Shown: one piece after another, positions 2,979-53,591 of the stretch
How positions within the stretch are numbered: position 1 is the first letter of the stretch
How the letters are laid out: every line of letters begins with the position of its first letter
Assembly (NCBI RefSeq): GCF_000483485.1
Contig: NZ_KI519609.1
Span: 2,075,460 to 2,139,459 of the forward strand
Reading direction: 5' to 3'
Source of the DNA: Thiomicrorhabdus chilensis DSM 12352
GTDB lineage: Bacteria > Pseudomonadota > Gammaproteobacteria > Thiomicrospirales > Thiomicrospiraceae
Length of the DNA stretch: 64,000 nt
Notes under the pieces: model-generated
The model's database searches: none
Seen by the model: the letters and a program-made list of their open reading frames with translations, nothing else
What the model was told of the DNA's origin: nothing
Program-made: the position numbers and the translations under genes

Positions 2979-3947
2979 ATGCTGAAAATCGGCCCTTATG
3001 CATTTGCACATAATCTGGTGCTGGCGCCCATGGCTGGGGTGACCGATTCCGTTTACCGAAAACTGTGTCGAGATTTCGGAGCCGACTACACCCTGGCGGA
3101 AATGGTCGCCTCGCAGAAACAGCTATGGGAAACGAAAAAATCCGCCACCCGCCAGGCCAACCCAAACGATCCGGAACCCCGCGCCGTACAACTGTTGGGG
3201 ACCGATGCTCAAGAATTGGCCGATGCCGCCGTTTGGCAACAGCAGCAAGGCGCACAGATCATCGACCTGAACATGGGCTGCCCCGCTAAAAAAGTATGCA
3301 GTGTAGCCGCCGGTTCCGCGCTGATGGGAGAGCCCAATAAGGTTGCACAGATATTTTCGGCCGTGGTGGATGCCGTGGATGTGCCGGTGACGGTCAAAAT
3401 CCGAACCGGACTCGATGACGAGCGAAAAAACGCCCTGCTGATTGCGCAACTGGCTCAGGAAAAGGGCTTGCAGGCGGTCACCATCCATGGCCGCACCCGC
3501 GAAGCCAAGTTCAGCGGTCAGGCTGAATACGAAACCATTCGTAGGGTCAAACAATCTCTGGACATTCCGGTGATTGCAAATGGTGATATTAACACACCCG
3601 AACAGGCCAAATTTGTATTAGAATATACGTCCGCTGATGGCATTATGATCGGACGTGCAACGCAAGGCTATCCATGGATATTTCGTGAGATAAATCATTA
3701 TCTTGAAACCGGCCGGCACCTCCCATCTCCAACCTTGAACGAATTCCGCAACGCCATGCTGGAACACACCTTGGGATTGCATCAGCTGTACGGTGAAATG
3801 CTGGGCGTGCGCATCGCCCGCAAGCACATTGGATGGTACAGTCAACATCTGCCACAGGGCTCGGCTCTGCGCAAACCATTCAACCTGCTGACCGACCCAA
3901 ACGAACAACTCAAGTTGATTGAGGCCTTTTTTGCAAAACGCATTTAA
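2979..3947 (+). CDS. dusB: tRNA-dihydrouridine synthase B
   Basis: FMN-dependent reduction of uridine to dihydrouridine in tRNA. The 322-residue protein starts with LKIGPYAFAHNLVLAPMAGVTD, of which the APMAGVTD strand begins the TIM barrel. The catalytic cysteine motif NMGCPAKKVC is at about residues 98–107, and VKIRTGLDD, TIHGRTR and IANGDI mark further FMN and RNA contacts. fis follows 45 bp downstream; dusB-fis co-transcription is the known enterobacterial arrangement. A CAGGCCTG palindrome sits one base after the stop codon, at 3949. Confidence 0.96.
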   Translation: MLKIGPYAFAHNLVLAPMAGVTDSVYRKLCRDFGADYTLAEMVASQKQLWETKKSATRQANPNDPEPRAVQLLGTDAQELADAAVWQQQQGAQIIDLNMGCPAKKVCSVAAGSALMGEPNKVAQIFSAVVDAVDVPVTVKIRTGLDDERKNALLIAQLAQEKGLQAVTIHGRTREAKFSGQAEYETIRRVKQSLDIPVIANGDINTPEQAKFVLEYTSADGIMIGRATQGYPWIFREINHYLETGRHLPSPTLNEFRNAMLEHTLGLHQLYGEMLGVRIARKHIGWYSQHLPQGSALRKPFNLLTDPNEQLKLIEAFFAKRI

Positions 3948-16184: not shown

Positions 16185-16308
16185 CTATCCGATCCATGTT
16201 TCATTATTCATCTGGCCCGCAAGCTTAATCTAAAACCCTTGAACAAAAGTTAATCCATCTCAAGAGTTGCGCATTTATCTGCCGGCAAGGCGGTTTAAAG
16301 GCGTTTAA

Positions 16309-16491
16309 GGAACCTCTGATTGAATCAGATTGGATTCTGGCAACGCCAAGTTTTCCAGATCAAGGCGTGAAGTTGCAGTAATGTCCAGACCTTGCAAAAC
16401 TTCACAACGCGGAGCTAGGAAACTTGGCTAAGCCCTTTCGGGCGGGGCTTAAAGCCCCGCAGAATCTCAATCTGATTCAATCAGAGGTTCC
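16309..16491. mobile_element. 183-bp MITE-like element at the 3' end of rlmKL
   Basis: Terminal inverted repeats start GGAACCTCTGATTGAATCAG and are perfect for 25 bp inside the element (29 bp including the flanks 16304–16332 against 16468–16496). Both ends are bordered by TTAA (16305–16308 and 16492–16495), consistent with a 4-bp target duplication; because TTAA is palindromic this cannot be separated from a longer repeat. The interior has no transposase and contains a GC-rich hairpin (GGCGGGGCTTAAAGCCCCGC). The TIR resembles those of IS5-type elements, which is inference. The element supplies the last codons and stop of rlmKL. Confidence 0.7.
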
Positions 16492-18683
16492 TTAAATGAC
16501 CAGGCCTGGTGGATTTTGCTGTTGCGTTGAAAATCTTTCGGCATGGTTTTTTGCGTGATATCGGTGACTTCCACATCCTCAAACTCAGCTTTGGACAACT
16601 TGAATTTGCGTAAATTGGTCGAGAAAATCAACTCCCCGCCGGGCTTTAACAGCGTCAAAGTTTGCTTGATCAAGTCCACATGGTCACGCTGAATATCCAA
16701 GGTGCCTTCCATGCGTTTAGAAGTCGAAAAGGATGGCGGGTCCAGGAAAATCACGTCAAACTCGGCCTTCCCTTCCGCTGTGGATTTTTCCAGCCATTCC
16801 AATACATTCGCCTGTTCCAGACGGTGTTTGGACTCATCACAGCCATTGCTCAAAAAGTTGTGTTTCGCCCAGTACAAATAGGTCTTCGACATATCCAGGC
16901 TCAAACTGTTTTTCGCTCCATGAACCGCGGCTTCGGTAGTCGCCGTTGCAGTGTAACAAAACAGGTTCAACAGGCTTTTGCCTCTTGATTGCTGCGCCAC
17001 ATAAGCGCGTACATCGCGATGGTCGAGAAACACGCCGGTATCCAGATAATCGGTGAAGTTAACGCGCAATTTGGCGCCGTTTTCCATCATCGTGAAAAAC
17101 TGTCGGTTCTCATCCAGACGTTCGTATTGCGAGGTGCCTTTCTGGCGTTCACGCACCTTAAAGACAATGTGATCCACCGGCAGATCAAACACCTCCGGCA
17201 AGACTGACATGGCCTCGTGCAGACGTTTTTTGGCTCGACCTCGGTCAATCGTCTTGGGCGCGGCGTATTCATTGACCACCAGCCAATCGCCGCCTTCCAG
17301 AGTTTGATAAAAATCGATCGCCAATGCATATTCCGGCATATCGGCGTCGTACACCCGGTAAGCGGAAATCTGATTGGTTTTCGCCCACTTGCGCAATCCC
17401 TTGATGTTTTTCTTCAAGCGGTTGGCGAACATCTTGGCGCCTTCGCTCTGCACCAGGTCGGGCAAAGCCATCTGAACTTCTTCCGCCAGTTTGGCGCCGC
17501 CTTTGACGGCCGGCTGACGATGAAATTCCTCTTTGATATCGAAACGGAACAGTTTACATTCCATCGGCCCATTGAAGAAGTTGTGGCTGCGTTTTGCCTT
17601 AAGCCCCAAATACATGCCCAATTCCGGGTTACAGGTCAGAATCGCCGCCTGCCATCCGTCAAATTCGTTTTTGAGGTAATTCCCCAATTCGACATAAATG
17701 CTTTTTACCGTATCCAGTTCGCCCAAGCGCTCGCCGTATGGCGGATTGGAAATCACCAGGCCTGGTGTCCAGTCCCCCCAGCGTCGACCCTGCTCAACGG
17801 TCATCTGTTTGATTTCGATGGCATCCGCATAACCGGCATTGGCGATCGCTTCTTCGGCGATATCCAATGACTTGTGCGACGCATCCGAACCGTAAATCGC
17901 TGGCAAATTGCGCAAACCTTCCGCCTCGCGCTCTTCGGCTTCCTCCACCAAACTAAGCCACAACTTGGCGTCATGCTGTTTCCAGGTCAAAAAGCCCATC
18001 TGTTCGGATTTTTCCAACCCCGGCGCCAGATCGGATGCCATCATCGCCGCTTCAATCAAGAAAGTTCCAGAACCGCACATCGGATCATACAAGGTACCAC
18101 CCTGCTTGGCGATTTCCGGCCAACCGGCACGCATCAACAACGCCGCCGCCACGTTCTCTTTCAATGGCGCCTTGACCTGCTGACCTTCACGATAACCGCG
18201 CTGGTGCAGACTGTGCCCGGTCAAATCGATACTCAAGGTCAATCGGTTACGGTTTAGATGTCCGTGAACGCGCAGCTCGGGATGCATCGTATCCACACTG
18301 GGGCGACTGTTGGAAACCGTTCTGAAATAATCGACAATGCCGTCCTTGATCTTCAAGGCTCCGTAATGACTGTGGTCGATGCCCATGCCTTTCCCGGAAA
18401 ACGAAACCGCAAAGGTTCCGAACGCGTCCATATGTTGATCCCAGTCGATAGCGGCGACCTCAAGCGTCAAGTCTTCCTGAGTATCCAACTCCGTCTCCAG
18501 AACCGTGAGGTAAATCCGGTTGGCCAAACGCGACCACAGACAGGCGCGGTAAGCCACTTCCAGACTGCCTTCGAAACTGACACCCCGGGGTTGTGCCTTG
18601 ACATTTTCAGCGCCCAAAGCGATCAACTCTTCTCGCAACATCTCACTCAACCCACCCGGCGAGGTGGCAAAACATTTCAACAT
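16467..18683 (-). CDS. rlmKL: Bifunctional 23S rRNA methyltransferase RlmKL
   Basis: Fused enzyme making m2G2445 (RlmL half) and m7G2069 (RlmK half) in 23S rRNA. An N-terminal THUMP region is followed by RlmL with YDPMCGSGTFLIEAA and the catalytic SNPPYGERLGE. The C-terminal RlmK half carries LNLFCYTATATTEAAVHGA and FLDPPSFS. M5 of the longest frame (ATG 18683) is preferred because GGA lies at ribosome-binding distance; the first ATG is at 18695. The normal C-terminus (RNSKIHQAWSFK) runs into EPLIESD and a stop, all encoded by the right terminal repeat of the element at 16309–16491. The insertion has therefore rewritten only the extreme C-terminus. Confidence 0.95.
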   Translation of the reverse strand: MLKCFATSPGGLSEMLREELIALGAENVKAQPRGVSFEGSLEVAYRACLWSRLANRIYLTVLETELDTQEDLTLEVAAIDWDQHMDAFGTFAVSFSGKGMGIDHSHYGALKIKDGIVDYFRTVSNSRPSVDTMHPELRVHGHLNRNRLTLSIDLTGHSLHQRGYREGQQVKAPLKENVAAALLMRAGWPEIAKQGGTLYDPMCGSGTFLIEAAMMASDLAPGLEKSEQMGFLTWKQHDAKLWLSLVEEAEEREAEGLRNLPAIYGSDASHKSLDIAEEAIANAGYADAIEIKQMTVEQGRRWGDWTPGLVISNPPYGERLGELDTVKSIYVELGNYLKNEFDGWQAAILTCNPELGMYLGLKAKRSHNFFNGPMECKLFRFDIKEEFHRQPAVKGGAKLAEEVQMALPDLVQSEGAKMFANRLKKNIKGLRKWAKTNQISAYRVYDADMPEYALAIDFYQTLEGGDWLVVNEYAAPKTIDRGRAKKRLHEAMSVLPEVFDLPVDHIVFKVRERQKGTSQYERLDENRQFFTMMENGAKLRVNFTDYLDTGVFLDHRDVRAYVAQQSRGKSLLNLFCYTATATTEAAVHGAKNSLSLDMSKTYLYWAKHNFLSNGCDESKHRLEQANVLEWLEKSTAEGKAEFDVIFLDPPSFSTSKRMEGTLDIQRDHVDLIKQTLTLLKPGGELIFSTNLRKFKLSKAEFEDVEVTDITQKTMPKDFQRNSKIHQAWSFKEPLIESD

Positions 18684-20273: not shown

Positions 20274-20338
20274 AACAAAAACCTCTTCATAACCCGCTTG
20301 CAAAACCGGGCTTCTGCCGTTACTCTAAAAAAGCAACA

Positions 20339-20422
20339 TTGTCGGAGTGCCTAGACTAGGCTGAGATCGCGAAAGCGGGATCCGTAGAACCTGATCTGGT
20401 TAATACCAGCGAAGGGAACAAT
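20339..20422 (+). promoter_or_regulatory. TPP (THI-box) riboswitch
   Basis: Contains the conserved thiamine-pyrophosphate aptamer elements: GGAGTGCC, GGCTGAGATCG, then GAACCTGATCTGG-TTAATACCAGCGAAGGGAA. It lies about 210 bases before the thiC start, so the leader is long. A hairpin (AATCAGAC at 20421–20428 pairing with GTCTGATT at 20466–20473) begins at the 3' edge of the aptamer and may belong to the expression platform. No T-run follows, so a Rho-dependent or translational mechanism is more likely than an intrinsic terminator. Confidence 0.92.
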
Positions 20423-20531
20423 CAGACATACAACGTTTCCGCCCATCGGCATTCGAGTTTCAAACGTCTGATTCATGCAAGATTTGCGTGAATACCCACT
20501 CACCTCATCTTCCTGAATCTTTGTCAGCTGA

Positions 20532-22571
<2,040 letters not shown>

Positions 22572-30798: not shown

Positions 30799-31356
30799 TT
30801 AAGGCTTGGACTGATCACCCTGTGCGTCAACCGCTTGCTGCTTGGCGGCTTTCTCATGACGAGGTTTCAAAATCAATTCGTTCAAAATGAGCAGGCCTGC
30901 CCCCAGGGTAATGGCCACATCCGCAACATTGAAGGTGGCGTAATGCCAAGTGCCGATGTAAAAATCGATAAAATCGGTGACCCGCCCTTCCAGAACGCGG
31001 TCAATGACATTACCGATGGCGCCGCCCAAAACCAGATTAATGCCGATGGTTTCAACATTTAGTTGATTAGGAAGTTTCTTCAGCCAAACATAAAGGATGG
31101 CGCTGACGGCCGCCGCCAGCCCTGTGAAAAACCAACGCTGCCAACCGCCCATATCCGCCAGAAAACTGAATGCGGCACCGTGATTGTAGGTCAGGGTCCA
31201 ATTCAAGTTCGGCATCACCGCCATCGGTTCACCAAAAGTCAGGCTAGTCACCGCCCAGTACTTGCTCAATTGATCAAGCACAATCACCATTACTGCAAAC
31301 CAAAGGGTGCGGACAGCAGTTTTGGAAACGGCTGTAGCAGAATTTGAATCAGGCAT
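30799..31356 (-). CDS. lspA: Lipoprotein signal peptidase
   Basis: Inner-membrane aspartic protease that removes prolipoprotein signal peptides (SPase II). From ATG 31356 the product is 185 aa (start [10 protein letters not shown]). That ATG overlaps the ileS stop by 8 bp (ATGCCTGA) and has AAGGGGAAGAG upstream, better than the longer start at 31377. Four membrane helices are visible. Catalytic Asp motifs are [20 protein letters not shown] and [11 protein letters not shown]. The C-terminal tail is basic. ileS-lspA coupling is the standard order. Confidence 0.95.
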
Positions 31357-34177
31357 AATGACGCTCTTCCCCTTCACCCTCTACGTTGTCCACACAACGC
31401 TGACACAGTTCCGGATGCGCTTCAATCTGACCGACCTCGTCACGATGATGCCAGCAACGTGCACATTTTGGTTTTTCCGTGGCTCCAGCATCAATCCACA
31501 GGCCTGCCAATTCCGATTCCACGGCACTGTCCGGTTTATCTGCCAAAGGTTTCACAGCGGCATCCGAGGTGATCAGCACAAAACGCAGTTCATCTTCCAA
31601 CTGGTTGATTGCATCGAACAGACCGTTTTCACAATAAAGCGTGACTTCGGCCGTCAAGGAGCCTTTAATGACTTTATCGTTTCGCAACTGTTCCAACTGC
31701 TTGGAGACCGCCGAACGCACTTGCATCATCTGCTCCCAATAGGCCGAATTCATCTGCGCCGATTCATCCAATTCTGACAAACCTTCATACCAGGTTGAAA
31801 CGAAAACGGTCTGGGTACGCTCACCCGGAATTTCCCGCCAGATCTCTTCGGCCGTGAAACTCAAAATCGGCGCAATCCAACAGCTTAGCGCCTCAACGAT
31901 ATGGTACAGAGCGGTCTGCGCTGAACGACGCGGCAAACCGTCGGCCTTGCAGGTGTATTGGCGATCCTTGATCACATCCAGGTAGAAAGCACCCAGTTCG
32001 ACCGAACAAAAATGCGTGACGGCCTGATAGATGGCATGAAAATTATACTCCTCGTAAGCTTCAGTGATCTCTGTCTGCAATTTGGCCGCATGACCGATCA
32101 CCCATTTATCCAGCGGCAGCAAACCCTCATAGGCCACCAGATCAGTCGCCGGATTGAAACCGTTGATGTTGGCCAACAGGAAACGCGCCGTGTTACGGAT
32201 ACGGCGATAGGCATCCGCGGTACGGCTGATGATCTCGTCCGACACCGTCATCTCGTAACGATAATCCGCCGCTGAAATCCACAGGCGCAGGATATCCGCA
32301 CCATACTTGTTGGCAATCTCCTGAGGGGCGACCACGTTACCCTTGGACTTGGACATTTTCTTTCCGTCTTTGTCCACGGTAAAACCGTGGGTCAGCACTT
32401 GCTTGTACGGAGCCTGTCCGGATGTCGCCAAGGCCGTCAACAATGACGACTGGAACCAACCGCGGTGCTGATCCGATCCTTCCAGATACAAATCCGCCGG
32501 CGAATACAATTCATCGCGCTGATCCAGCACCGTGTAATGCGAAATCCCGGAATCGAACCACACATCCAGAATATCGGCAACCTGCTCGTAATCGTCCGCT
32601 TCGTCTCCCAACAAAGCAGCAGGATCCAAATCGTACCAAGCATCAATCGAATTCTGTTCGACCAGTTTGGCGACCTCTTCCATCAACTCGACCGTACGCG
32701 GATGCATTTCACCGGTGACCTTGTGAACGAAGATCGTAATCGGCACACCCCAGAAACGCTGACGCGAGATACACCAGTCCGGACGGCCGTCGATCATGCC
32801 TTCGATGCGATTTTGACCCCAATCCGGAACCCACTCGACTTTCTTGATTTCAGCCAACGCCTGTTCACGCAGACCGCCTTCGGTCATGGAGATGAACCAT
32901 TGCGGTGTGGCTCGGAAAATCAACGGTGTTTTGGTACGCCAGCAGTGCGGGTAACTGTGCTCGATGACTTCGATATGCAGTAACGCCTTATGCTCTTTGA
33001 GCACCTCGATCACGTGGTCGTCGACCTTAAGCACGTTCTCGCCTTCAAACAGCGGCGTACCAGCCACATAGTTACCACGACCGTCCACCGGGCAATCCAC
33101 TTCCAAGTCATACTTCAAACCGACCGCGAAATCTTCCTGACCGTGCCCCGGTGCCGTGTGCACACAACCGGTACCGGCTTCGGTGGTGACGTGGTCACCC
33201 AAAATCAACGGCACAATACGGTCATAAAACGGATGCTGCAAACGGATCAATTCAAACTGCTCACCGCGACCGTAAGCGATCACCTTGTAATGTTCATAGC
33301 CCCACTTGTCCATTGAATCCTTGATTTTCGCTTCCGCCAGGAACAGACGTTCCGGGCCGTGCTCGCCTTCAACCTGAACCACCGCATATTCAAGTTCCGG
33401 ATTGATCGACACCGCCTGGTTGGCCGGTAAAGTCCATGGCGTGGTGGTCCAGATCACCACCGACAAAGGCCCTTCACCCAAATGGTCTTCCACATGGTGA
33501 CAACGTTCGAAAAACGCCTTCTCGTCAAGCACTTTAAAGCGCACGTCAATTGACTTGGAACGCTTCATTTCATATTCGACTTCCGCTTCCGCCAACGCCG
33601 AATGCCCACCGACGGACCAATAAACCGGCTTGGTGCCTTTGACCAAATGCCCGTTCTGGATGATTTTCGACAGAGCGCGAATCTCGTTGGCCTCAAACTT
33701 AAAATCTTTGGTCAGATAAGGATGTTCCCAATCGGCCATGACTCCCAGACGCTGGAAATCGGCCATCTGGCCTTCCACCTGTTTCTGAGCATAATCTCGA
33801 CAGGCCTGTCTGAATTCGGTGGCACCAATTTTTTGGCCGACCTTGCCTTTCTTCTTTTCCACATTCAGTTCGATTGGCAGACCGTGACAGTCCCAACCCG
33901 GCACAAACGGCGCATCGAAACCACTCAAGCCCTTTGACTTGACGATCATGTCCTTCAATACCTTGTTCACCGCATGACCGATGTGAATGTTGCCGTTGGC
34001 GTACGGAGGGCCGTCGTGCAGAATGAACTTCGGACGTCCGGCCATATGCTCGCGAACCGTCTTATACAAAGATTCGGACTGCCAAGTCTCTACCTGTTTC
34101 GGCTCACGATTCGGCAAATTGCCGCGCATCGGAAAATCGGTTTCTGGAAGGTTTAAGGTCGGTTTATAGTCTGTCAT
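31349..34177 (-). CDS. ileS: Isoleucyl-tRNA synthetase
   Basis: Class I aminoacyl-tRNA synthetase of 942 aa. The HIGH motif occurs as [12 protein letters not shown] (about residue 60) and KMSKS as [11 protein letters not shown] (about 605). The editing (CP1) domain is present ([13 protein letters not shown]). The C-terminal zinc site has two CxxC-type pairs ([11 protein letters not shown] and LCQRCVDN). It lies between ribF and lspA in the order murJ–ribF–ileS–lspA. The 80-bp ribF–ileS gap holds a 33-bp mini-element at 34198. Confidence 0.98.
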
Positions 34178-34197
34178 GCTCTAGCTTCTATGTAAGA

Positions 34198-34230
34198 GAG
34201 AGCTTTGCATCTATCTCATGCAAAGCTCTC
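34198..34230. mobile_element. 33-bp mini inverted-repeat element with TAAGA duplication
   Basis: Perfect 13-bp inverted repeats GAGAGCTTTGCAT/ATGCAAAGCTCTC separated by 7 bases (CTATCTC). Immediately outside both ends lies TAAGA (34193–34197 and 34231–34235). The same termini border the 115-bp element at 52053, which also has a 5-bp duplication. It lies in the ribF–ileS leader, 20 bases before the ileS start, and forms a strong RNA hairpin without a T-run. Confidence 0.7.
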
Positions 34231-34257
34231 TAAGAGTTATAAGAATGAAAATAAGGG

Positions 34258-35193
34258 CTAATCAAAATACTGTCTGGCTTGCTGCGCATCCAAACGAATC
34301 TGTTCGGTTAATGCGTCCAGGCCGTCAAATTTCATTTCCGGACGCAAATAATGCCTCAAAGCCACATCCACATGGCGTCCGTAGATTTCTTGGTCCCAAT
34401 CGAACAGGTGCACCTCTATCGAAGGTCGGTGTCCGTTAACAGTCGGCCGAATGCCCAAATTGGCCACGCCCGGCCAAGGCTGCTCGGCGATGCCGTCCAC
34501 AGTCACGGCAAACACACCTTGAACCGGCATCTGCAAACGTTTCGGGTTCAGGTTCAAGGTGGGAAAACCGATGGTACGTCCCAGTTTCTGTCCGTGAATC
34601 ACCCGTCCGCTAAAGGTAAATGCCTTGCCCAACAAGGCCTCGGCCTCCTGCAGATCCGGCTTTTGCAGAGCATTGCGAATACGCGTACTGCTGACTCGCT
34701 GACCGTTCACACCATAGGTTGGCATATCAGTCACACTGAATCCCTTTTGCAAACCTTGCTGCTGCAAATAAGCGAAATCGCCAAGACGCTGTTTGCCGAA
34801 GCGGAAATCGTCCCCCACCACCAAATGTTTGACATTCAATCCCTGCAACAGAATCGAATCCACAAACTGCTGGGCTTGCAGACCGGCAAAATGTGCATCA
34901 AAACGCGCACACAGTACATAGTCAATCTCGGTGGCCTGAAACGCCTGCATTTTTTCACGCAAGTTCATCAAACGTACCGGCGCCTGATCGGGCGAAAAAA
35001 ACTCAACCGGCAAAGGCTCAAACACCATCACCACACTGGGCAACTTCTCGACTTTAGCCTGTTTGGCAACGGAACGCAAAACCTGCTGGTGTCCCACATG
35101 AACCCCGTCGAAGTTTCCAATCGTCAGAACACAGCCATTCGTCAATGCGCCCTGAACGGAATCTAAATTGTGCAAACCTCGAATTAAGTGCAT
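34258..35193 (-). CDS. ribF: Bifunctional riboflavin kinase / FAD synthetase
   Basis: Makes FMN and FAD from riboflavin. The 311-residue protein has the N-terminal nucleotidyl-transferase motif LTIGNFDGVHVGHQQVLR, then SSTRIRNAL. The C-terminal kinase domain carries GRTIGFPTLNL and VANLGIRPTV, with catalytic Glu in SIEVHLFDWD. It is upstream of ileS, as in many gammaproteobacteria. The leader from murJ holds an AT-rich stretch, so it may have its own promoter. Confidence 0.96.
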   Translation of the reverse strand: MHLIRGLHNLDSVQGALTNGCVLTIGNFDGVHVGHQQVLRSVAKQAKVEKLPSVVMVFEPLPVEFFSPDQAPVRLMNLREKMQAFQATEIDYVLCARFDAHFAGLQAQQFVDSILLQGLNVKHLVVGDDFRFGKQRLGDFAYLQQQGLQKGFSVTDMPTYGVNGQRVSSTRIRNALQKPDLQEAEALLGKAFTFSGRVIHGQKLGRTIGFPTLNLNPKRLQMPVQGVFAVTVDGIAEQPWPGVANLGIRPTVNGHRPSIEVHLFDWDQEIYGRHVDVALRHYLRPEMKFDGLDALTEQIRLDAQQARQYFD

Positions 35194-50894: not shown

Positions 50895-51905
50895 CTAAAC
50901 TTTAGCGTGCTTACGGTCATACTGATCGTAAGCTTTGACGATTTTCTGAACCAAAGAGTGGCGCACCACGTCCTTGGCCTGATAAAAGGTAAAGCCGATG
51001 TCCTCGACGCCTTCCAGCACCTCAATCACATGGCGCAGCCCCGACTTCTGATGTTTGGGCAAGTCGCACTGGGTAATGTCGCCGGTGATCACTGCCGTGG
51101 AGGAGAATCCCATCCGCGTCAAAAACATTTTCATCTGTTCGGTGGTGGTGTTTTGCGCCTCATCCAAAATAATAAACGCCTCGTTCAGGGTACGCCCACG
51201 CATAAACGCCAGCGGTGCGACCTCAATCACATTCTTTTCAATCAGACGCTCGACCGTTTCAAAGCCCAACATTTCAAACAGGGCGTCAAACAGCGGGCGC
51301 AAGTACGGATCGACCTTCTGGCTCAAATCCCCGGGCAAAAAGCCGAGTTTTTCACCCGCCTCCACCGCCGGACGCGTCAAAATAATGCGGCGCACCTTTT
51401 CGTTTTCCAATGCTTCCACCGCACAGGCCACCGCCAGATAGGTTTTACCGGTTCCCGCCGGGCCGATACCGAAATTGATATCGTGCTCTTTGATCGACTT
51501 CACATACTGCGATTGATTAGGGTTGCGGGTCTTAATCACCTTGCGGCGTGTCTTGATCAGCTGTTGATCCACGGTTACAGGCTGTGGCTCATCCAAACCC
51601 AAATTGTGCAACGCCAAATGTAGTTTTTCCGGATCAAGCGTCTCCTGCGCTGTTTCCTCATACAGATCCAGAATCAACTGCTCGGTTTGCACCAGACGAT
51701 CACCCAAACCGGTAATGGAAATATTGAACCCCCGGGAGTTGATTTCCACTCCCATGCGCAACTCAATCTGCTCCAAATGCTCGTTATGCCAGCCAAACAG
51801 GTTCTGCAGGCGCTCATTATCCTCAGGATAAAGTTTAAATTGAATAGTGTGCAGTGCTGACAATAGTGCGTCTCGGAAACTAAAAAATGGAAAAACGGGA
51901 TTCAA
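50895..51905 (-). CDS. ybeZ: PhoH-like ATPase (YbeZ)
   Basis: Cytoplasmic P-loop ATPase, probably with RNA-related activity alongside YbeY. The 336-residue frame has an N-terminal KH-like part and then the Walker [20 protein letters not shown]. Also present are [17 protein letters not shown] and Walker [28 protein letters not shown]. The frame's first start codon is TTG (51905); the true start is uncertain because no strong ribosome-binding site is seen there. ybeY follows after the stop. Confidence 0.94.
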
Positions 51906-52052
51906 AAGCCTGATGTCATACCATACAACAAGCTTTCAACCTTAATAATACTGTTTTTATGAAATTTCAATGACGAATCCGTTTGATTGACTTCTCATAG
52001 AGAGTCACATCAAACGGAGCCATTTCCTGAATGGCGGTCACAATTAAGTTTA

Positions 52053-52167
52053 GAGAGCTTTGCACGAGTGGAGCGCGAAAGAAAAATGAGGAAAAAATTG
52101 GCTGATTTTTAACCATTTTTATTCGTGCAACCATCTCGTGTTTATACCCTTTGGGTGCAAAGCTCTC
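52053..52167. mobile_element. 115-bp MITE-like element with GTTTA duplication
   Basis: Termini GAGAGCTTTGCAC (52053–52065) and its exact reverse complement (52155–52167). Both are directly bordered by GTTTA (52048–52052 and 52168–52172), a perfect 5-bp duplication. The inner sequence is itself a long imperfect hairpin (GAAAGAAAAATG… pairing with …CATTTTTATTCG). It has no coding capacity. It shares its termini and the 5-bp duplication length with the mini-element at 34198. It lies between miaB (stop 52179) and phoH. Confidence 0.75.
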
Positions 52168-52178
52168 GTTTAGTCAGT

Positions 52179-53591
52179 TTACAACGCATGAAATTGCGGT
52201 GCAACGTGTTTATCCGCTTCCGGTGTTGCCACCACTTTGCCACGCAGTGAATTGGCAAAGGCTTCGGTGATCTCCACGTCCACAAACTGGCCGATCAACT
52301 CCGGCGAACCTTCAAAATTGACCACCCGGTTATTTTCGGTGCGCCCTGCCACTTCGTTGAATTTATTGCGTGACAAACGTTCCACCAACACACTTTGCAC
52401 CGTACCCAGCATGCCTTCGCTGATTTCGGCAGTCTGCTTGTTCAGCAGTTCCTGCAAGGCATACAAACGGCGCTTTTTCTTTTCCAGCGGTTCCTCGTCC
52501 GGCAGGCTCGCGGCTGGGGTGCCCGGACGCGGACTATAGATAAAGCTGAACGAACGGTCGTACTTCAACTCTTCGACCAGCGCCAGGGTTTCTTTGAAAT
52601 CGTCACAGGTCTCACCCGGAAAACCGATAATGAAATCGCCCGACAAACTCAAGTTAGGACGCAAAGCACGGATTTTTCGAATGGTCGATTTGTATTCCAT
52701 CACCATGTGATTGCGTTTCATCAACGCCAGCACGCGGTCGGCACCCGATTGGATCGGCAGATGCAGATGCGACACCAATTCCGGAATTTCCGCATAACAA
52801 TCGATGATGCTCTGCGTCATCTCATTGGGGTGCGAGGTAGTGAAGCGGATGCGGTCGATCCCTTCCACCGCACGCACCGCATGCATCAACACCGCCAAAT
52901 CGGCAATTTCGCCGTCGGCCATCACCCCGCGATAAGCATTGACGTTTTGACCCAACAGATTCACTTCACGCACGCCCTGTGCCGCCAGAGAACGGATTTC
53001 GTGCATCACATCCTCAAACGGACGACTAACCTCTTCACCACGGGTATAAGGCACCACGCAGAAAGTACAATATTTGGAACAGCCTTCCATCACCGACACC
53101 ATCGCCGAGACACCACTGACTTCCGGTTCCGGCAGGTTATCGAACTTCTCGATTTCCGGAAAGGTGATGTCGATGACCGCTTTTTTCTTTTTGATGTGGT
53201 CATCGCCGCGCATTTCTAACGCCTGATCGATCATGGCCGGCAAACGATGCAACGTCTGCGGCCCGAAAATCACATCCACACTCGGCGCACGCTGACGAAT
53301 CACCTGGCCTTCCTGTGACGCCACACAACCACCCACGCCAATGACGCGATTGGGTTTCGCAGCCTTCCATTTGGCCCAACGCCCCAATTCCGAGAACACC
53401 TTTTCCTGCGCCTTCTCGCGCACCGAGCAGGTGTTCATCAACACCACGTCCGCCTCTTCCGGCTCGGTCACCAGCTTCAGACCATGGGTCTTTTCCAATA
53501 AACTCGCCATCTTGTCAGAATCGTATTCGTTCATCTGACAACCGTAGGTAATAACGTAAAGTCCGCCAGTAAAAGGGGTGGTTTGCGACAT
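52179..53591 (-). CDS. miaB: tRNA-2-methylthio-N6-dimethylallyladenosine synthase
   Basis: Radical-SAM methylthiotransferase acting on i6A37 of tRNA. The 470-residue protein has the N-terminal cluster Cys residues ([40 protein letters not shown]), the radical-SAM motif [24 protein letters not shown], and a C-terminal TRAM domain (about 380–448, with LVERLSR). The order miaB–phoH–ybeY–corC–lnt is conserved, although here a MITE-like element separates the first two genes. Confidence 0.97.

Follow-up and report, generated by a model that had tools for sequence, protein, structure and literature searches.

The nearest described precedents for the elements considered here are BrickBuilt of Porphyromonas and ATR of Neisseria. 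BrickBuilt is a MITE of Porphyromonas gingivalis, dispersed in about 19 copies, with no transposase remnant inside; its intact copies have GAGACCTTTGCA ends like those of IS5-family elements (PMC4596501). The AT-rich repeat (ATR) of Neisseria meningitidis, as far as it is summarized in that paper, is a type II MITE with ISNme1 as its proposed parent, and its ends match those of this IS5-family element, GAGACCTTTGCAAAA (cited in PMC4596501). The Porphyromonas paper was the sole relevant one found on the 12-mer ends; the literature searched yielded no description of these ends in Thiomicrorhabdus or its relatives, and nothing on Thiomicrospira MITEs or Thiomicrorhabdus insertion sequences.

The window analyzed in this study, a stretch of 64,000 nucleotides from the 2.44-Mb genome of Thiomicrorhabdus chilensis DSM 12352, contains two short elements, of 115 and 33 bp, with common 12-13-bp ends GAGAGCTTTGCA (Table 1). 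Each lies within an exact 5-bp duplication, and the four perfect matches to GAGAGCTTTGCA in the window are the four ends of the two units; units, ends, and duplications all lie where the earlier note had placed them. The 115-bp copy consists of a left arm of about 50 bp joined to the right arm of a longer form, the centre being lost, and its right-end 33 bp have a 100% identical match in genome G006. An end module resembling this right end is seen in a 58-bp near-perfect palindrome at another locus (L316:1501-1558), which has the alternative end GAGACCTTTGCACCCAAGGGCATA and an exact TATTT duplication.

Table 1. Positions in the window of the two elements, their parts, and the genes around them
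Feature	Position	Strand
115-bp MITE copy, internal-deletion form of the ~160-185-bp family element	52053..52167	+ (consensus forward orientation)
Left target duplication GTTTA, 115-bp copy	52048..52052	
Right target duplication GTTTA, 115-bp copy	52168..52172	
Left terminal inverted repeat GAGAGCTTTGCAC, 115-bp copy, continuing to CACGAG	52053..52065	+
14 additional bases TTTATACCCTTTGG, preceded by CTCGTG and followed by the right terminal repeat, 115-bp copy	52141..52154	
Right terminal inverted repeat GAGAGCTTTGCAC, 115-bp copy	52155..52167	-
33-bp remnant: GAGAGCTTTGCAT (13 bp), spacer CTATCTC (7 bases), ATGCAAAGCTCTC (13 bp)	34198..34230	
Left target duplication TAAGA, 33-bp unit	34193..34197	
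Right target duplication TAAGA, 33-bp unit	34231..34235	
miaB-like gene (UPF0004, radical SAM, TRAM), ending 11 bases from the 115-bp element	52179..53591	-
PhoH-like gene flanking the 115-bp site	50895..51905	-
ribF-like gene (FAD synthetase/riboflavin kinase) flanking the 33-bp site	34258..35193	-
ileS-like class I tRNA synthetase gene, start codon 20 bases from the 33-bp element	31349..34177	-

A genome-wide search for pairs of these ends, with one mismatch allowed and also with the 115-bp copy as query, as the earlier note had proposed, yielded 12 paired elements, namely one of 161 bp, five of 160 bp, two of 185 bp, and one each of 205, 115, 33, and 27 bp. Full-length copies are about 160 bp and longer forms 185-205 bp, so that the overall range of 159-205 bp is too short for a transposase. 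Nine of the twelve are flanked by an exact 5-bp duplication (GATTA, TGAGC, AAATA, TTTTA, TTAAT, ATAAA twice, TAAGA, and GTTTA), and the flanks of the other three agree in four of five bases (two elements) or two of five (one element). Insertion sites are mostly AT-rich and intergenic.

The family, which is non-coding, extends across Thiomicrorhabdus, a genus of sulfur-oxidizing bacteria, and beyond it. With one mismatch allowed, the 16-mer GAGAGCTTTGCACGAG occurs in 23 of 32 genus genomes, with 1 to 272 matches each, and the reversed control had no match in any of the 32. Thiomicrorhabdus sp. Milos-T2 (G012), which belongs to the genus group together with T. cannonii HH3 (G003), contains 381 perfect 12-mer ends GAGACCTTTGCA. 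A scan of the collection found the family in Hydrogenovibrio sp. JE_KL2 and in MAGs carrying the labels Thiotrichales or Piscirickettsiaceae; the matches frequently lie at the end of a contig. Bins with the labels Campylobacterales and Rhodobacterales gave single matches, which are located at the ends of contigs and may reflect binning errors. These elements are a well-supported family of the MITE type, the type being already known and the family itself new.

Since the elements are intergenic hairpins, they could in principle be inverted repeats that arose by chance, intrinsic terminators, or static palindromes between genes, the repeats at their flanks being accidental. We consider this practically negligible, given the copy number and the identity between copies, the lack of a T run directly 3' of the hairpin on the transcribed strand, and the duplications, which have exactly one length. 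Among all fetched loci, 43 of 119 paired elements have an exact 5-bp duplication, compared with 1.4 expected with shuffled partners, and none of the 119 has a duplication of 6-10 bp; three of them (54 bp) are artefacts of the loose end pattern inside IS copies and were left out of the later copy comparison.

The same explanation is contradicted by empty sites in relatives. At the 33-bp site, genome G026 reads CTTCTATATCGGAGTTA, where T. chilensis has CTTCTATGTAAGA, the 33-bp unit, and TAAGAGTTA; the flanks align, G026 has a single 5-bp target (TCGGA), and the left flank in T. chilensis ends in the first TAAGA. The site of the 205-bp element (genome position 1242386) likewise has a single target copy in G026, which reads CTAACTTTTGACAAC against GAACTTTTA, the element, and TTTTAGATTG; in T. 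cannonii the spacer at this site contains an element of its own, separately placed. Thus the search for empty sites suggested by the earlier note gave a clear answer for the 33-bp element. For the 115-bp element the result is supportive, as none of the relatives examined has an element there, in a spacer too diverged for exact placement of the target.

The transposase with matching ends that the earlier note had asked for was found in relatives; it belongs to an IS5-family element some 1.25 kb long, which has the ends GAGACCTTTGCACGAG and is flanked by 5-bp duplications. The T. chilensis genome itself contains no PF01609 transposase, and a protein search found no relative of the partner transposase in it. 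Elements of 1244-1264 bp with GAGACCTTTGCACGAG-type ends occur in genomes G014, G023, G056, and G060; those of G023 and G014, which are 1244-1254 bp long and have matching ends, contain a transposase of 326-328 aa. Full-length IS copies have the ends GAGACCTTTGCACGAG and GAGACCTTTGCAAAAC, and three of the eight examined, all in G060, have an exact 5-bp duplication (AATAA, AAGAT, and AAGCT). In G056 and G059, relatives of this transposase are bordered by GAGAGC ends, and a decayed remnant of the IS in G001 is still next to a GAGACCTTTGCACGAG end. In total, relatives of the partner transposase were detected by protein search in 14 of 63 family genomes, with 16 matches in G060, a member of another genus.

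The transposase is of the IS5 DDE family: it passes the NCBIfam IS5 equivalog NF033581 (E 1e-77, 260 bits against a cut-off of 140) and contains the domains PF01609 and PF05598. The partner element also has the terminal repeats and short target duplication by which the IS5 family is recognized, a family whose subgroups differ in duplication length. Among the named elements of the plasmid collection, ISAba23 is the closest to it, with 54% identity across the whole protein.

The left end of the 115-bp copy has 16 bp in common with the IS5-family end except for position 5, which is G in this copy and C in most IS copies. Among the MITEs position 5 is either C or G, but of 79 full-length copies, 72 have the same base there at their two ends. 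The MITEs and the IS have no internal sequence in common, and hence the link between them rests on 12-16 bp and the duplication length. As the miniatures share solely their ends with the IS, they are of type II in the sense used for the Neisseria ATR.

Common ends, 5-bp duplications on the MITEs and on three IS copies, empty sites, and genus-wide spread all bear on the origin of the family. Based on these observations, we propose, with a probability of about 0.88, that the elements are foldback MITEs of about 160 bp moved in trans by an IS5-family transposase with the same ends, producing a 5-bp duplication. From the sequences, such a transposase, recognizing the same 12-16-bp ends, would mobilize the MITEs in trans, and an IS of this kind would once have been present in the T. 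chilensis lineage and later lost. The claim of the earlier note that these are non-autonomous, MITE-type units with a history of transposition is borne out by the copy number, the 5-bp duplications, and the two empty sites, and further by a related autonomous element of the IS5 family, whose ends and duplication length are the same.

In Milos-T2, where copies are most numerous, no relative of the partner transposase was detected. The PF01609 transposases of this genome were checked, and in no case do these ends lie on both sides. At L089, L096, L104, and other loci, it contains a separate expanded IS family without these ends, with at least 13 nearly identical copies of another PF01609 transposase (400-aa open frame).

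The strict census revealed 23 short forms of 20-50 bp in the 32 genus genomes and none in 31 genomes of other genera. Eight of them are exactly 33 bp long, with differing interiors. With looser ends and flanks, there are 30 forms of up to 50 bp, including ten of 33 bp, three of 20 bp, and two of 32 bp; the 33-bp and 20-bp forms are below the usual size range of MITEs. We suggest that the 33-, 27-, and 20-bp forms would arise by loss in place of the sequence between short direct repeats (TGCA or variants of it). Being self-complementary, TGCA is found in the two arms as a direct and also as an inverted repeat, and the palindrome would make such slippage likely. Of 158 ends of full-length copies, 142 have a TGCA beginning at base 9, 24 have one at base 21, and 9 have one at base 22. 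Deletion from the TGCA of one end to that of the other arm predicts lengths of 20, 32, and 33 bp, which agree with 15 of the 30 short forms, although this account is post hoc, having been made with the lengths already known. When one mismatch is allowed, the commonest internal position of TGCA is 22, which corresponds to 33 bp. Several junctions have a 4-base repeat and others have none; several 33-bp forms lack a perfect repeat. In no relative was the position of a short form seen to be occupied by a full-length element.

Alternatively, the 33-bp and similar forms could be transposition-competent minimal units that were inserted as such. Three 33-bp copies with different interiors (L051, L075, and L144) have exact duplications around them, and 33 bp is the commonest length after 159-160 bp, which may point to a required spacing of about three turns of the helix. 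However, in-place deletion likewise preserves the duplications, and the lengths of 20, 32, and 33 bp are those expected from TGCA slippage. The interiors vary between copies, and several match the arm sequence beside the right end. As a matter of general knowledge, two 12-bp ends nine bases apart leave little space for a synaptic complex. We regard transposition of a minimal unit as unlikely, and the 33-bp and like forms are probably remnants of in-place internal deletion. The 33-bp unit, described in the earlier note as an extreme minimal form, does consist of two termini and a 7-base spacer, but is best read as what recurrent internal deletion leaves of a 160-bp element.

Full-length copies fold back along their whole length into what is nearly all a single imperfect hairpin, with 57 pairs, of which 27 have changes on both sides (30 copies). 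The hairpin cells are 95.7% paired, a value reached in none of 500 shuffles and far above that obtained with the partner slid. In a wider set of 53 full-length copies with a mean identity of 79%, 52 fold more stably as the aligned forward strand than as its complement, the means being -72.9 and -58.3 kcal/mol, respectively. In the union of pairs over these 53 copies, the forward strand has more G-U wobble cells than mirror A-C cells (274 versus 98), an excess that the random gene orientation does not account for. Selection on the hairpin may be the source of the covariation, as may template switching that homogenizes the arms, or, in part, descent.

Whole-length pairing with these two-sided changes, the strand preference in folding, and the location of both window copies between same-strand genes (miaB-phoH and ribF-ileS) would also be expected if the elements were functional hairpins, that is, RNA processing sites or mobile regulatory RNAs under selection, with mobility secondary. 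This is quite unlikely, because orthologous sites in relatives lack the element, the 115-bp element has no match in Rfam, and the strand asymmetry could come from a single ancestor. Relative to co-directional flanking genes the orientation shows no bias (14 versus 15), and so there is no sign that RNA read through on one strand matters. A similarly doubtful idea is that compensatory change, mainly on one strand, preserves the hairpin of the full-length element, which may then be a mobile structured RNA or a transposition-coupled hairpin under selection, more than a passive passenger, and which decays by repeatable deletion to a 33-bp scar.

Some other features were observed in the window. At 16304-16496 there is a second MITE-like unit, in which 135 bases separate perfect inverted repeats of 29 bp (TTTAAGGAACCTCTGATTGAATCAGATTG). 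A 30-nt repeat centred on the palindrome CAGGCCTG is dispersed in eight copies (at 3940, 14752, 30766, 35295, 38751, 39737, 44699, and 57498), which may be terminator-like or another repeat family; within them, AACAGGCCTGNT occurs five times in the window, with none expected. A TPP riboswitch at 20333-20434 lies upstream of an ORF starting at 20544.

Close relatives thus hold a series comprising the autonomous IS, a decayed IS, full-length miniatures, deletion forms, and empty sites. This series lends itself to the study of how MITEs persist after their transposase is gone and how elements with a palindromic structure become shorter. The family probably also accounts for many of the contig breaks in assemblies of these bacteria.

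Among named systems, ISAba23 has the ends GAAACCTTTGCACGA and GAGACCTTTGCACGA; the ISAba23-like IS is autonomous and about 1.25 kb long, whereas the miniatures share its ends alone. The Thiomicrorhabdus family resembles BrickBuilt, compared by the published table of ends, in the GAGACCTTTGCA ends, the lack of a transposase remnant, and the dispersed copies. BrickBuilt differs in having an internal 23-nt minisatellite and irregular duplications, in contrast to the 160-bp whole-length hairpin and constant 5-bp duplications found here. ATR, compared by its ends only and as cited in the Porphyromonas paper, is likewise a type II MITE with ends matching those of an IS5-family element, and differs in its host.
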